A stretch of DNA of 41,123 nt from IMG/VR virus record IMGVR_UViG_3300020213_000050, positions 1 through 41,123 of that record; one strand, given 5' to 3'. The notes beneath the pieces are model-generated. The model was given only the letters and a program-made list of their open reading frames with translations, was not told where the DNA came from and searched no databases. Of the stretch, positions 1-41,123 are shown in pieces. The DNA is from a virus. The number at the start of each line of letters is the position of its first letter. Within the stretch, counting starts at the first letter, position 1. The translations under genes and the position numbers were made by a program.

Positions 1-192
1 ATGAGTAAGATAAAAAGAACAACACATCACGACACTCAAGAACGAACCGGACAGTGATCTTGATCTTGATCTTGAGGTTGATCTTGAGATTGGTGTTGAT
101 CTTGAGATTGGTGGTGATCTTGAGATTGATCTTGAGATTGAGGTTGATCTTGAGATTGAAATAATTTTATACGTAAAATCATTAATGAGTAA
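1..192 (+). CDS. (Gly-X)n repeat protein, copy 1
   Basis: With UGA as Gly this reads as a 63-aa protein. The N-terminus MSKIKRTTHHDTQERTGQ is followed by alternating Gly and Ser/Asp/Gly, interrupted by DWC and DWW where UGG replaces UGA, and a tail NNFIRKIINE. Nearly all repeat glycines are UGA. The stop (UAA, 190-192) overlaps the ATG of the next copy by eight bases. The tail codons are the same DNA that serves as the upstream leader in other copies, so this copy may have lost its own stop. It begins at base 1, so upstream control is not visible. No family recognised; a Gly-rich low-complexity structural or surface protein is a guess. Confidence 0.6.
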
Positions 193-475
193 AATCGAAA
201 GAACATTCTATCCAGACACGCAAGAACGAACTGGAGATTGATCTTGATCTTGATCTTGAGAGTGAGATTGAGATTGAGATTGATATTGAGGTTGATCTCA
301 ATATTGATATTGAGACTGAGATTGATCTTGATTTTGAGGTTGATATTGATGGTGATATTGAGGTTGATATTGATGTTGAGGTTGATATTGAGGTTGATAT
401 TGAGGTTGATCTTGAGATTGAGATTGAGAGTGATCTTGATCTTGATCTTGATCTTGATCTTGAGGTTGATCTTAG
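185..475 (+). CDS. (Gly-X)n repeat protein, copy 2
   Basis: A 96-aa protein in the UGA=Gly frame. The start MSKIERTFYPDTQERTG is a variant of the leader seen in the other copies. From residue 18 on almost every second codon is UGA (38 of 96), paired with Ser, Asp, Tyr, Gly or Glu codons, ending in UAG. Because the DNA has a 6-bp period, other frames on both strands are also open. The UGA frame is preferred because the start, leader peptide and phase are shared between copies. No homologous family is recognised. Under a standard code the product would stop after 18 residues. Confidence 0.65.
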
Positions 476-27917: not shown

Positions 27918-28337
27918 TTATTTGTTTCTAATTACAATATCCGCTTCTGCTCAGTCAATATAGAATTTTCAATCTCTATATTCAACTTCTTGCCCGTCAA
28001 CCATTTGCATTCGGTCTCCATTAGTGTCTGCTCTATAAACTATTTTATAATTTTTGTATTCTTGAATACGCTTGTATCCGTTACGGTCTTTAAAAAATAT
28101 CTCGTTACCGTCTTGATTATGTTCTCGTTCTTCTGTGTTTCCTCGTGAATCTTCAGAATATACAGGCAAACCTTGAATATCATGTTTCCAGATTTTTCGC
28201 TTGTGTTTGCTCTCACTATATATTAGATTTCATCTCTCATCAAGTCAAATAATATAATCTTCACAATATCTTATCTCATGAATATCTTTCTCTTTCATTC
28301 AAAGGAATGTAGGCACAAATTTCTCAATAGTTGTCAT
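27918..28337 (-). CDS. DxxGN-repeat protein, paralog A
   Basis: 139 aa. Opens with FVPTFLGMKEKDIHEI, then LDERGNLIYSE, EDSRGNTEERE, NQDGNEIFFKDRNG and ends YRDGKFYIDGAEADIVIRNK. The closing part (Y-x-IDG-x-EAD) is shared with the gene at 29707. Five UGA glycines, several at the conserved GN or FLGM sites. Two bases separate it from paralog B (TAAttATG). Role unknown; expansion suggests host- or defence-related adaptation. Confidence 0.75.
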
Positions 28338-28339
28338 AA

Positions 28340-28888
28340 TTATTTGATATCTGATATGAATTCGGCTTCCTGCCCATCAATGTAATACACTCAATCTATG
28401 TGGGATATTGTTTTTTCTCCTATAGTCTTACATCGCTCTCATCTCTCATTCTCCCAATATATCCTTGTATTTTGTTTATTATATTCTTGAATAAGCTTAC
28501 GTCAGCTAGCGTTTTCAAAAAATATCTCATTATCGTTGTTGTCGTAAGTACGTATTCGGGAATATAACGAACCATCATTACAACATGTATAGTTACCCCT
28601 ACGGTCATACTTGTTTTTAACAACTCTTCACTTAGAGTCCTTGGAATATGTTACCTTGTTGTTCTTGTTGTATTTCCAAAGAGTCCAGTTTTTATGTTCG
28701 TACTCCTCATATATTCTATTTCATCTCTCATCACGACCTATTATACCTGTACGGTCTCGGTTATATACGATCCTATGCATATCTTTCTTTTTCATCCCTA
28801 GAAACAAGGGCTTGAACTTCTTTTTCTTTACTTCCACCACTTTTTCCACCTTCTTTATCTTAAAATCTTTTAGTCTTGCATCTCTCAT
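28340..28888 (-). CDS. DxxGN-repeat protein, paralog B
   Basis: 182 aa. A Lys/Val-rich N-terminus (DFKIKKVEKVVEVKKKKF) precedes PLFLGMKKKDMHRIVY, DERGNRIYEE, KYDRRGNYTC and YDNNDNEIFFENASG, ending YYIDGQEAEF. Five UGA glycines. Same family as 791, 27918 and 29707, with an extra N-terminal basic segment as in 29707. Confidence 0.75.
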
Positions 28889-29542: not shown

Positions 29543-29707
29543 TTATCTGATAAAAGTTTCTTTTCTTTCTTGGCGACATTTATTTTGGTACTCTTTAATC
29601 TTTTCCTTGTTTTCTTTGTAATAATTCCTGTGATACTCTTTAGCTTTTTCTTTGTTTTCTTTATAATATCTTTTCTGGTATTCTTTAGCTTTTTCTTTGT
29701 CTCTCAT
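29543..29707 (-). CDS. Short Lys/Glu/Tyr repeat protein
   Basis: 54 aa in about three 17-residue units of the form KEKAKEYxxxYYKENKE. No UGA. Starts inside the stop of the upstream repeat protein (TAATG). Related in composition to 28890-29111; together they bracket the resolvase gene. Confidence 0.65.
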   Translation of the reverse strand: MRDKEKAKEYQKRYYKENKEKAKEYHRNYYKENKEKIKEYQNKCRQERKETFIR

Positions 29708-30213
29708 TATGTTTTGCTTCTAATTACAAGGTCAGCCTCTTCTCAGTCAATATAGTATTTTAAGTCTCTATATTCAACTTTTGTCCCGTCAATCATTTGC
29801 ATTCGCTCTCTATTGCTATCTGCTCGATAAACTAGTCAATCACGATTTCATTCTTGAATACGTTTGTATCCGAAAGAATCTGTAAAGAATACCTCATCAT
29901 CATCATTATGGTGTTTTCGTTCTTTTATTTTCCCCCGTGAATTTTCACAATATACAGGCGAACCTCGAATATTATGTTTCCAGAGTGTTCGATCGCTTTT
30001 GTACTCCTCATATATTTTATTTCATCCGTTATCAAATCCATCTATATGGTCGCTATCATATACTATGTGATATATATCTTTCTCTTCCATTCAAAGGAAT
30101 AGGGGTTTGAACTCAGGAAGTTTTACTTCTACCACTCATTCGTTCTCTTCCGCTTCTTCTATTATTTCTTCCTTTAATCTAAAATCAGATAGTTTTATTT
30201 TTTTCTTTTTCAT
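29707..30213 (-). CDS. DxxGN-repeat protein, paralog C
   Basis: 168 aa. A charged N-terminus (KEEIIEEAEENEGVVEVKL), then PLFLGMEEKDIYHIVYD, NGGNKIYEEY, ENSRGKIKER, FFTDSFGYKRIQEG and the shared end VEYRDLKYYIDGEEADLVIR. Six UGA glycines. Closest in its C-terminal half to paralog A. Confidence 0.75.
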
Positions 30214-33726: not shown

Positions 33727-33966
33727 ATGAAAAATGTTACAATCAGTGCAGACTGATATAAATTAGAAAGAAAGTTTTCTTCTTGTTGAGAAGTGATATT
33801 CTCGGAGTCCTCAAGTCACGGAAAGTGTCTAGGACGATGGGAAAAGATAGGAGACGACATAACTGTCTACTATGAAAATTGAATTTTTGATATTTGCATC
33901 AACCCTTTGGCTCGTGAATATGCGGATCAAGGAGTGTGCGTACGTCAAGAATTTAAAATAAATTAA
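33727..33966 (+). CDS. Hypothetical 79-aa protein, paralog of 35167
   Basis: MKNVTISADGYKLERKF..., with GRWEKIGDDITVYYENGIF and a C-terminus VRQEFKIN. Most of it matches the 85-aa protein at 35167 nearly residue for residue; the N-termini differ. Three UGA glycines in conserved places in both. Beta-rich; function unknown. First gene of the rightward arm, so probably early. Confidence 0.7.
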
Positions 33967-33993
33967 GATTTTTTTATAAAATAAATAAATATT

Positions 33994-35166: not shown

Positions 35167-35424
35167 ATGAAAACTGTAAAACTTACAGATGTAACTAGAA
35201 TCAGTGTAGACTGATATCAGTTAAAAAGAAAATTTAATCTTTCCTGAGAAGTGATATTCTCAGAGTCGTCAAGTTATGGGGAGTGTCTAGGACGATGGGA
35301 AAAAATAGGAGACGACATAACTGTCTACTATGAAAATTGAATTTTCAATATATGCATAAACCCTTTGGCCCGCGAATATGCGGATCAAGGAGTGTGCGTA
35401 TGTCAAGAGTTTAAAATAAATTAA
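35167..35424 (+). CDS. Hypothetical 85-aa protein, paralog of 33727
   Basis: Starts MKTVKLTDVTRISVDGYQL, then shares EVIFSESSS, CLGRWEKIGDDITVYYENG, NPLAREYADQGVC and QEFKIN with the 79-aa paralog. Silent differences dominate, suggesting selection on protein. Three UGA glycines at the same sites. Confidence 0.7.
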
Positions 35425-35452
35425 GAATTTTTTATAAATAAACAATATTATT

Positions 35453-36063: not shown

Positions 36064-36654
36064 ATGATCGAAAGTAAAGAAAGTAAAGTAATAGAAAGTA
36101 TCAAAGAAATAGGCTTGAAGTATGCTACAGCGGTAGTTATGCCTTTAACTGATGCTTGGATGCATTCTCCAGCTACGACGAAGCTAGCAATCTTTCAAAA
36201 GACGCCTCAGACTGTTGTAAAAACCAGAAAGGTTTGAAGCAAAGACGTTCCTTACGTGACTATTGGTTACGTAGAAAGGGTACTGAATTTTGTTTCAAAT
36301 TTTCAACGATGAATAAAAGTTGTTGAAAAATGAATAAAAATATATGAGCAAAAGAACTCCGCTTGATTTGAGGTAGAGCAATACGACGCTTGGGTGCAAT
36401 GTGATTGCTACATTGTGCTAGACTGACACAGAATAGAAAGGTCTGTATTTGGCATCTGGAAGATGTCAAAAAACAAGGCTATAAGCGATTGGGCGGTATA
36501 TGAATCCGCAAGATCACAGGCGACAAAATCGTTTGCTGATACGCTTTGAATTTGATCAGACAAATGATGGTCAGAGGCTGCCAATAACAAAAGAGAGTAC
36601 ATCCAAAAAGAGTTGGATGTTCTAGATTTATCACTGTTCCAAAAAAATGGATAA
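36064..36654 (+). CDS. Rad52-like single-strand annealing protein
   Basis: 196 aa. VPYVTIGYVERVLNFVSNF near residue 68, WVQCDCYIVLDGHRIERSVF in the middle and SFADTLGIGSDKGW near the C-terminus follow the pattern of phage Rad52-type annealing proteins (KxFADTLGIGSD is a family hallmark). It would pair complementary strands during recombination-dependent replication. Eight UGA glycines, one of them in LGIGSD. The next gene, a PD-(D/E)XK nuclease, overlaps it by eight bases, a classic pair. Confidence 0.7.
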
Positions 36655-37534
36655 CTATATCAATAACAATGAATGAAAAATCACAAAAAGTAAGCTCTGG
36701 CTATTCAAACAATGTCCAGAGGCGTACAAAAGAGTATACGAGGACAAAGAGGATACTAGCTTTATTGAGAAGTCGCCTTCACTCGAAATGTGAACAATGA
36801 TTGATCAATATATACTCGACCCGAAAGAGTTTGGGGAAAACTATGCATTCCCTTGTTGAGGAGGACTGAAGCAAGATTTTATTGATGCTTGTATAAGCCA
36901 AAACATACCAGTTATGCCCAAAGACACGGTCGATATGATCAAGGCAAAATTGTATGGTAATAAAAAAGTAATATCTGTTTGAGATGCAAAAAAACTAATC
37001 TGCATAGCAAAGGAGTTGAGAAGACAAATTCTTTTTGATTATCATACAGAGTATGAAGTACAAGTGGTAGTCGAGGCTACATATAAGGGGCTAGTCTTGA
37101 AAGGAACAATTGACAGATTATCTGTTGAGCTTTGACTTATCAGAGACCTGAAGACCAGCAAAGATATAGTGATGAGTAATTATCACTGAGTATCTATGTT
37201 CGAGAATATGCTCGTTAATAATGACGAGTATGGGTATATATTCCAGCTGTCATTTTATTGGTTACTATGTACAATAAAGTATGGTCAAGGGTTTGTCTGT
37301 ATAATAGACTGAGTCAAAACTAGTTGAAATTATGCAAGTCAATTCTTCCAAATAAGCCAAGAAACAATCCAAAAAACGGTCAATGATGAAATCATACCGC
37401 TACTTGATATGTTGGTCAAATACAAAGAAACTGGTAAAATAGAAGAGGTAGAAAGGGAAAATCTACTGGGTAATAAATACTACCCAATGCTAGACAACGC
37501 AATTCAAAAGGATTTTATTAGTATTACAAATTAA
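36647..37534 (+). CDS. PD-(D/E)XK exonuclease
   Basis: 295 aa. N-terminal KSKLWLFKQCPEAYKRVY is the usual start of RecB/Cas4-like nucleases. Residues 152-172 contain KGTIDRLSV and IRDLKTSK, giving Asp-156, Asp-167 and Lys-169 as catalytic candidates, followed by YIFQLSFYWLL. It probably makes the single strands used by the annealing protein. Nine UGA glycines. Confidence 0.8.
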
Positions 37535-38958: not shown

Positions 38959-39248
38959 TGGCAAAAACAACAAAAAAACCTATCGGTGCTGGAGAATTGT
39001 TTTGAGAGTACACAAGCGAGATTAAAATATATCTAGGACAAGTGAAATCATTAGAGAAAGCTAAAAAGATATGCGGAGCATTGACTATACTTGAAGAAGA
39101 AATGTGTATTCATTCAACGAGGTTATATATAGAGTGATGTTTCTTTTGCCCAGACATAGATCTATCTCAGTTAGGGAATACACCAATGGAAATACTTTTA
39201 AGGGAAATTATTTTAGATTTGAGATTTAGTTGAAAATGAAAACAGTAG
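38958..39248 (+). CDS. Hypothetical 96-aa protein
   Basis: MAKTTKKPIGAGELFGEYTS..., helical (VKSLEKAKKICGALTILEEE) with C-x-x-C like CFFCPD in the middle. Four UGA glycines. Its last 20 codons are duplicated at 485. Overlaps the next gene by 13 bases. Confidence 0.6.
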
Positions 39249-39394
39249 ATATACTAAGAAAACTGCATGTTACAGAATGGTTTGGTGAAGAAGACAGTTG
39301 GACGATATCTTATGACGGGATCAACACAGATCATGACGTTGTAGTTTCTGAAGCTTTCGCAAAAGAATTGATCCAACTCAAATATACGATTTGA
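39184..39394 (+). repeat. 211-bp direct repeat, right copy
   Basis: Identical to 484-694. Here it lies in intact genes on the left side, so this is probably the parental copy. Confidence 0.9.
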
Positions 39395-39412
39395 ATCGGT
39401 AGATACGAATAA
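39236..39412 (+). CDS. Small acidic protein, right copy
   Basis: 58 aa; first 53 codons identical to the gene at 536, then a short tail IGRYE and UAA. One UGA Gly. Since the two copies end differently, one tail is probably a product of the rearrangement. Function unknown. Confidence 0.6.
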
Positions 39413-39849: not shown

Positions 39850-39889
39850 TTATTGAATATTAGAATAATTTATATATGTAAAATCATCA

Positions 39890-40198
39890 ATGAGTAAGAT
39901 AAAAAGAACAACACATCACGACACTCAAGAACGAACCGGACAGTGAGAGTGATCTTGATCTTGATCTTGAGGTTGATCTTGAGATTGGTGTTGATCTTGA
40001 GATTGGTGGTGATCTTGAGATTGATCTTGAGATTGAGGTTGATCTTGAGATTGAGGTTGATCTTGAGTTTGATCTTGATGGTGATATTGATCTTGAGGTT
40101 GATATTGATATTGAGCCTGAGATTGATCTTGAGTTTGATCTTGATGTTGAAGGTGATCTTGAAATTGAGCTTGACGTTGAGATTGACGTTGAGGTTAG
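39890..40198 (+). CDS. (Gly-X)n repeat protein, copy 3
   Basis: 102 aa: the leader MSKIKRTTHHDTQERTGQ, then about 83 residues alternating UGA-coded Gly with Glu, Ser, Asp, Tyr, Val, Arg or Asn, with the same DWC and DWW interruptions as copy 1, ending UAG. The first half matches copy 1 apart from one added GE unit; the rest is an extension. Preceded by a conserved leader (AATAATTT...TAAAATCATCA). Confidence 0.7.
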
Positions 40199-40229
40199 TA
40201 CTAAAATAATTTTATATTTAAAATTATCA

Positions 40230-40580
40230 ATGAGTAAGATAAAAAGAACAACACATCACGACACTCAAGAACGAACTCAAGAACGAACTTGAGAACGAAC
40301 TTGAGAGTGAACTTGACGGTGATCTTGAGATTGATATTGAGATTGATCTTGAGGTTGAAATTGAGCTTGACGGTGAGAGTGATGTTGAGGGTGAGGGTGA
40401 TCTTGAAATTGAGCTTGACGGTGATCTTGATGGTGAGGGTGATGTTGAGCTTGACGGTGATCTTGATGGTGAGATTGAGATTGATCTTGATGTTGAGGGT
40501 GATCTTGATGGTGAGATTGAGATTGATCTTGAGTTTGATCTTGATGGTGATATTGAGATTGATCTTGATGGTGAGATTAA
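40230..40580 (+). CDS. (Gly-X)n repeat protein, copy 4
   Basis: 116 aa: MSKIKRTTHHDTQERT with the QERT block repeated, then 47 UGA glycines alternating with Ser, Asp, Gly, Arg, Ala, Trp, Cys or Asn, ending GWGD and UAA. Its X positions are the most diverse of the family, including many UGG (Trp), which differ from UGA by one base. Leader sequence conserved with other copies. Confidence 0.7.
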
Positions 40581-40661: not shown

Positions 40662-41030
40662 ATGACTACAACTATCATAATCAATTGAGTAGAATACATC
40701 AAGAAGTCAGAATGTTTTTCGTCAGTGGTGAACACCGAATGACTTGAATTCACACTGGTCCGCACAGCATCTGCGTGAGTATATGTAGGATATATGAAAG
40801 ACGAGTGTAATGCAACCAGTACATGCACACTGTTGCAAGCAAGAAGAATGCGAAGATGGGAGGGGGCATCCGAGTGTTGAGAGCTTGTTACAAGAGGGAC
40901 AAGCAAGCCTGATGAATGTAAATTCCCAAGCATAGTTCCATTAGTACGCTTGAAGGGGGTTGCCGAATGTATCCCTGTGTCAGCAGAGGCTAAGGCGATC
41001 ATCGATTCAGTACCTGTATGGACTGAATAA
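40662..41030 (+). CDS. Hypothetical 122-aa Cys-containing protein
   Basis: MTTTIIINGVEYIKKSECFS..., with eight Cys spread along it, GYMKDECNATSTCTLLQ and ECKFPSIVPLVRLKG. Four UGA glycines. It lies between two (Gly-X)n genes and behind the hairpin element. Family unknown. Confidence 0.65.
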
Positions 41031-41051
41031 TTTATATATGTAAAATCATCA

Positions 41052-41123
41052 ATGAGTAAGATAAAAAGAACAACACATCACGACACTCAAGAACGAACCG
41101 GACAGTGAGAGTGATCTTGATCT
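41052..41123 (+). CDS. (Gly-X)n repeat protein, copy 5, cut by the window end
   Basis: 24 codons: the leader MSKIKRTTHHDTQERTGQ, then GEGSGS. Same bases as copy 3 over this length. The window ends inside the repeat, and begins at base 1 with another copy, so the molecule probably continues or closes through these repeats. Confidence 0.7.

Follow-up and report, generated by a model that had tools for sequence, protein, structure and literature searches.

Phages that read UGA as glycine throughout their genomes (genetic code 25) have been described from Gracilibacteria and Absconditabacteria (PMC10746230, PMC13059738), and a phage of a related kind carries its own tRNA-Gly(TCA) (PMC13059738). 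A hypervariable PTD repeat gene is known from a Gracilibacterium, and TGA is not used in that repeat (PMC6851277). The accessible portions of the work on code-25 bacteria and phages, including PMC10746230 and PMC13059738, make no mention of UGA arrays. The other known element that concerns us is DUF6948 (PF22253), a family of unknown function in Pfam. The open-access literature searched makes no mention of it, and we found no description there of phage (Gly-X)n proteins of the type reported below.

The window analyzed in this study is one virus record from IMG/VR (IMGVR_UViG_3300020213_000050) at its full length of 41,123 nucleotides, and it carries genes in which UGA alternates with a variable codon, X. 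These arrays are very probably the code-25 form of a widespread phage gene pair, a (Gly-X)n gene and a DUF6948 gene, read in the frame of the leader ATG with UGA as glycine. Within the open-access literature, the gene pair seems to be undescribed and its UGA-coded form seems to be new.

The window phage, like the code-25 phages mentioned above, uses UGA for glycine genome-wide. In its conserved genes, among them those for terminase, DnaB helicase and amidase, TGA-encoded glycine is about as frequent as all GGN codons summed (199 TGA versus 212 GGN codons in eight main genes), and the mean ORF length is 381 in code 25 versus 105 in code 11. No tRNA gene was found in the window, and tRNA-Gly(UCA) would have to be supplied by the host. 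Searches with the array leader and with the exonuclease recovered no close relative of the window phage, and the nearest terminase relatives (L125 and L126) use code 25 but are fragments without arrays. As a separate observation, the terminase motif GAYTTYTGATWYACNMAYGAYCC, with TGA as glycine, pulled code-25 viral contigs cleanly when used as a single pattern, and 17 of 17 matches (L276-L292) had far longer ORFs in code 25.

The first-pass annotation had listed five array genes with a shared leader, starting at positions 1, 185, 39890, 40230 and 41052, and these starts and the leader are correct by the sequence and its code-25 translation. Four of them are genes that share the leader, which reads MSKIKRTTHHDTQERTG... 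in general and MSKIERTFYPDTQERTG... in copy 2, and the fifth is a 72-nt fragment at the contig end. All lie on the plus strand. Copy 1 (1-192) encodes 63 aa in code 25, and its upstream sequence falls outside the contig. Copy 2 (185-475) encodes 96 aa with 38 TGA and stops at TAG 473-475; copy 3 (39890-40198) encodes 102 aa with 40 TGA and stops at TAG; copy 4 (40230-40580) encodes 116 aa with 47 TGA, stops at TAA and has a leader lengthened by CAAGAACGAACT repeats. The earlier TGA counts, 38 of 96 codons in copy 2 and 47 of 116 in copy 4, were thus exact, while the in-frame stop then reported at the array end exists in three copies (TAG, TAG and TAA) and not in copy 1, whose array ends without a stop and whose frame, running over the first bases of copy 2, continues to TAA 190-192. 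Copy 5 (41052-41123) is a (Gly-X)n gene of which the contig, ending here, contains only the initial 72 nt; these match the beginning of copy 3 exactly, and the 99 nt around them duplicate 39863-39961. If the genome is circular, copies 1 and 5 could be one gene, which would give four genes. A DUF6948 gene at 40662-41030, between copies 4 and 5, had been overlooked.

The surroundings of the contig ends look shaped by recent duplications. A 223-nt direct repeat (98% identical) occupies 479-701, right after copy 2, and 39179-39401, ahead of the gene that precedes copy 3. The window also has a family of small paralogues, scattered on both strands (791-1204, 27918-28394, 28340-28888 and 29707-30213), that resemble RHS/YD repeats, with a weak PF05593 match (E 0.011) for 791-1204. 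Another recent paralogue pair, 33738-33980 and 35196-35438, is 88% identical over 243 nt and is accompanied by three occurrences of the short repeat AAGGAGTGTGCGTACGTCAAGAATTTAAAATAAATTAAG.

The composition of the arrays is strict. Among 145 units, TGA fills the fixed position in 140, TGG in four and CAA in one; GGA, a synonym in code 25, is absent. X ends in T in 120 units, in G in 23 and in C in two, and never in A. Runs of five TGANNT units were observed 39 times in the window, with none expected from shuffles. Ser is the commonest X in every copy, followed by Asp. Tyr, Ser, Asp and Asn together account for 27/39 X residues in copy 2, 23/39 in copy 3 and 22/46 in copy 4, a weaker bias than the 37/37 of the code-25 phage L244 described below, and much of the remaining X in copies 2-4 is Gly, Trp, Arg and Cys. 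The copy 3 protein is disordered in its AlphaFold2 model (mean pLDDT 46), and Pfam, PHROGs, NCBIfam and PADLOC returned nothing useful for the array proteins; in BLAST searches, (Gly-X)n sequences were masked for their low complexity.

Which frame of such an array is read has to be settled with care. In a TGANNK array, plus-strand frames other than frame 0 cannot hold a stop and are all open in the standard code, so openness proves nothing and the frame needs other evidence. Reading the window arrays in the +1 frame yields a clean Asp/Glu-Leu/Ile/Val protein, and the antisense frames are largely open too. TGANNK arrays are common in standard-code viral contigs, where the +1 frame is usually read, and we dropped their occurrence in public contigs as evidence per se, most of them being standard-code repeats of this kind. 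Among array genes of code-25 hosts, the +1 frame is used in L361, L363 and L368, and frame 0 in L294 and L365. The two frame 0 cases mix TGA and GGN in their Gly-X stretches: L365 (about 1500-1547) is a thioredoxin-like protein with the tail GGGDGSGEGCGSGSCGTGCSC, and L294 (about 1500-1540) is a secreted protein with NGNGQGLGYGSGNGSG after an apparent signal peptide.

That the window arrays are translated in another frame, as the acidic-hydrophobic +1 protein, or are noncoding would agree with the open plus frames and with the +1 usage in standard-code contigs and in the three host genes; moreover, amino-acid selection alone leaves the invariance of TGA unexplained, and folding of the plus strand is stronger than in dinucleotide shuffles (z -5.1). 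The folding excess, however, is gone when whole units are shuffled, and RNA hairpins (z about -5 against dinucleotide shuffles) were rejected as a candidate; no known RNA family was found. The start signals also speak against these readings. Of 38 confident window genes, 34 have TTTA at a distance of 13-27 nt before the ATG, a motif that precedes 6% of the 1380 other ATGs (p 6e-35). It is present at all four array copies that have upstream sequence, on the plus strand at 166-169 (19 nt before the copy 2 ATG), 39869-39872 (21 nt before copy 3), 40211-40214 (19 nt before copy 4) and 41031-41034 (21 nt before copy 5). Because the array copies are paralogues, these motifs do not count as four independent events. 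The motif is absent from the competing +2-frame and antisense starts of the arrays, and the +1 frame contains no ATG, GTG or TTG before them. Together with the Gly-X proteins that standard-code phages encode in the corresponding position next to DUF6948, this makes another frame or a noncoding role extremely improbable. The earlier argument that a shared start, phase and stop support coding was right in its outcome, since coding is upheld by the start motif, L244 and the DUF6948 pairing, although the shared phase itself is weak evidence. The motif, as TTTA(T), is also seen upstream of 26652, 31681 and 33162 on the minus strand and of 36064 on the plus strand and occurs often in L244. Its role in these phages may be that of a promoter for near-leaderless transcripts or of a start signal of non-Shine-Dalgarno type.

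L244 was the one other code-25 phage obtained in an IMG/VR scan for long TGANNK arrays, and it is unrelated to the window phage. Its array gene of 87 codons reads M-IKDFTTNN-(G[Y/D/N])37-KVIK from ATG to TAA, with 37 TGA units in which the second codon is TAT, GAT or AAT and, in the last one, TAC. The neighboring genes are on the same strand at distances of 12 and 22 nt, and a DUF6948 gene follows the array (PF22253, 3e-18, above the curated cut-off). The search of code-25 phages for the window leader followed by TGANNN arrays, which the first-pass annotation had proposed, produced an array gene in L244 and no leader match. The leader pattern found no match in viral contigs outside the window phage; conservation of the leader in relatives had been expected of a real family, and leaders are lineage-specific among the standard-code members too, so that leader homology does not define the group. 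(Gly-X)n proteins starting at the leader ATG with UGA as glycine are upheld by the start motif, the L244 gene and the standard-code (Gly-X)n/DUF6948 pairs.

The DUF6948 gene of the window (40662-41030, plus strand) encodes 122 aa with a predicted Sm/LSm-like barrel, matches PF22253 with E 9.4e-15 and scores 55.0 bits against a curated Pfam cut-off of 27, so that both it and the L244 neighbor are members of the family by score. Copies 4 and 5 flank it. DUF6948 lineages were collected by protein search of phage and plasmid records with arrays ignored (L385-L394), and two further DUF6948 queries gave no new lineage. In 9/9 standard-code lineages fetched, a (Gly-X)n run was present in a gene adjoining or overlapping DUF6948: a Chlorobiaceae phage, two Manatee Spring podoviruses, two faecal phages, Vibrio, Pectobacterium and Iodobacter phages and a Monoglobus plasmid. 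DUF6948 is also found beside arrays in two IMG/VR lineages that were fetched via their arrays (L338/L340 and L007/L241). The partner reads MSRLVNNKNGDGSGYGDGYGYGDGSG... in Iodobacter phage PhiPLPE and MSKLIKPEKYGSCYGYGSGSGSG... in Pectobacterium phage Taid. In L387, L389 and L393 a larger protein carries the run, of 6, 8 and 15 units respectively, as its N-terminal part, and in L386 it is split into short stretches. These larger proteins of the gut phages and the Monoglobus plasmid (L387:4258-4779, L389:2216-2836 and L393:3276-4037) share a domain, GIKTFNGDKVYIIDD...AHGETLHEAF..., for which Pfam gave no match.

The standard-code partners in Iodobacter phage PhiPLPE, Pectobacterium phages Taid and Sabo, Vibrio phage IKEMa6-1 and Chlorobiaceae phage CV-1-33 resemble the window genes in having a short leader, Gly at every second residue, X mostly Tyr, Ser, Asp or Asn, a single dominant Gly codon and X third base per array, and a position directly beside DUF6948. 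They differ in that Gly is GGC or GGT rather than UGA, in their leaders, and in the range of X, which is broader in the window through the addition of Gly, Trp, Arg, Cys and Ala. In many standard-code pairs the Gly-X gene comes after DUF6948 with its start overlapping the DUF6948 end, whereas in the window arrays lie on both sides. The tandem arrangement has parallels in L241, with at least three consecutive array genes sharing the leader MKEKHNM, and in L338, with one (Gly-X)n gene on each side of DUF6948. Leaders of different lineages lack homology, and the proposed common descent of the array gene therefore relies on its position and type and not on its sequence.

Among 775 kb of viral contigs selected without regard to arrays, no ORF reached eight (Gly-X) units, and elsewhere in 3.2 Mb of loci, most of them array-chosen, mixed-X runs without DUF6948 came essentially from one further family (L327, L329 and L332). 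That second mixed (Gly-X)n family has a leader ...ERCMSTLEGNGDGNGYGNG, and no DUF6948 was found in the stretch examined. In 77 genomes of a code-25 host order, a search for DUF6948 gave 0 matches, as did the control of that search, so the absence carries no weight. PHROG 18306 aligns with DUF6948 over 150-234 and with the Gly-X region of L393 over 58-136, the latter match being possibly inflated by low complexity; a family apparently made of a Gly-X region followed by DUF6948 would suggest joint action of the two.

The purity of the fixed codon is not peculiar to UGA. Standard-code arrays have fixed Gly codons of GGC in 36/36, 35/35 and 26/26 units and GGT in 46/46, GGC being the codon of most lineages. 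Most of these arrays keep a single third base in X, either C or T throughout, with X mostly Tyr, Ser, Asp and Asn; L393 is more mixed. The window and L244 show these codon habits of the family with TGA and T. A selection for UGA itself, making the genes a sink for the host's UGA-decoding tRNA-Gly or a switch working only in recoding cells, would fit 140 TGA among 145 fixed codons with no GGA despite its synonymy in code 25, and tRNA supply can matter, as a phage of a related kind with its own tRNA-Gly(TCA) indicates (PMC13059738). Standard-code members are, however, equally pure in another Gly codon and equally fixed in the third base of X, so purity is a property of array growth, and a gene with about 40% UGA would tax the phage too. 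One-codon purity whatever the code leaves no reason to suppose that UGA was selected as such, and neither a tRNA sink nor a code-dependent switch, both offered by the first-pass annotation, is needed; we regard selection for UGA as very unlikely. The missing GGA and the missing third-base A were dropped as signs of UGA-specific selection on the same ground. Nor does the claim survive that these proteins could not be made by a standard-code cell, as the same protein type is made from GGC or GGT in standard-code phages and only this DNA is unreadable there.

For the arrays as the code-25 form of the gene pair, the following course is probable. Each copy yields a short lineage-specific leader and, behind it, a (Gly-X)n tail predicted to be disordered. 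Arrays would lengthen and shorten in steps of 6 bp, so that one Gly codon and one X third base came to dominate in each lineage, and in a phage with UGA as glycine, the dominant Gly codon became UGA. Simple hexamer growth would also explain the codon purity if the arrays were translated but selfish expansions without function, caught in small ORFs; the order of units is unremarkable, and the genome is rich in recent small duplications. Against such functionless expansions stand the recurrence of the DUF6948 pairing in phages of very different hosts and in two codes, the convergence of X on Tyr, Ser, Asp and Asn, and the recurrence of tandem copies with a common leader (L241). We consider them quite unlikely.

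The position of the pair bears on its function. It is often near genes for ERF, RecE/RecT, SSB, RusA or exonuclease, and most records place it at a distance from virion genes; the window itself contains an exonuclease VIII-like gene at 36647-37534. A surface or structural polymer had been suggested by the first-pass annotation, which would place the (Gly-X)n tail in the virion or the envelope of the host, and its glycine-rich low complexity, together with the Gly-X tails of the two code-25 host proteins (L294 and L365), one with an apparent signal peptide, would suit this role. However, no signal peptide was found in any leader, and the pair keeps company with recombination and replication genes, mostly away from virion genes, which renders a polymer role unlikely.

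The DUF6948 model, built by AlphaFold2 from six sequences, has a mean pLDDT of 71. All 50 of the 50 PDB matches listed are Sm/LSm proteins or Sm-bearing complexes, with a best E of 0.015, and among viral models the best matches are DUF6948 proteins. Each match is weak, and the predicted Sm/LSm-like assignment rests on the consistency of the matches. DUF6948 is thus alike in predicted fold to Sm/LSm and Hfq-type RNA-binding barrels, to which no sequence relation was found. A disordered, self-associating (Gly-X)n protein would be the partner of this putative nucleic-acid-binding protein, and the pair would gather RNA or single-stranded DNA in the early recombination/replication phase. By analogy only, the (Gly-X)n protein recalls FUS-like condensate-forming low-complexity domains in its Gly-Tyr-Gly, Gly-Ser and Gly-Asp steps, in its predicted disorder and in its genetic link to a predicted nucleic-acid-binding fold; it differs from them in being non-homologous, in being a separate gene and in its strict alternation, and Tyr is low in window copies 3 and 4. 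A FUS-like (Gly-X)n partner that condenses with DUF6948 is accordingly offered as a tentative possibility, and still more speculative is the wider proposal that phages of distant hosts and of two codes share a ribonucleoprotein-condensate system around recombination and replication, with Sm/LSm-like DUF6948 and a FUS-like (Gly-Y/S/D/N)n scaffold. If this were true, code-25 phages would keep the amino-acid pattern of the scaffold though nearly every scaffold glycine is encoded by UGA.

The recurrent (Gly-X)n and DUF6948 pair has been concealed by standard gene callers and low-complexity filters, and its protein type is not restricted to recoding cells. Ordinary phages spell the same protein pattern, beside the same neighbor, in GGC or GGT, and the window phage spells it in UGA. 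This natural experiment supports UGA as glycine in the window phage without recourse to alignments of conserved genes. Since UGA makes up about 40% of their codons, the array genes would be sensitive reporters of UGA-glycine decoding. What persists across the family is the amino-acid pattern, not the codon.
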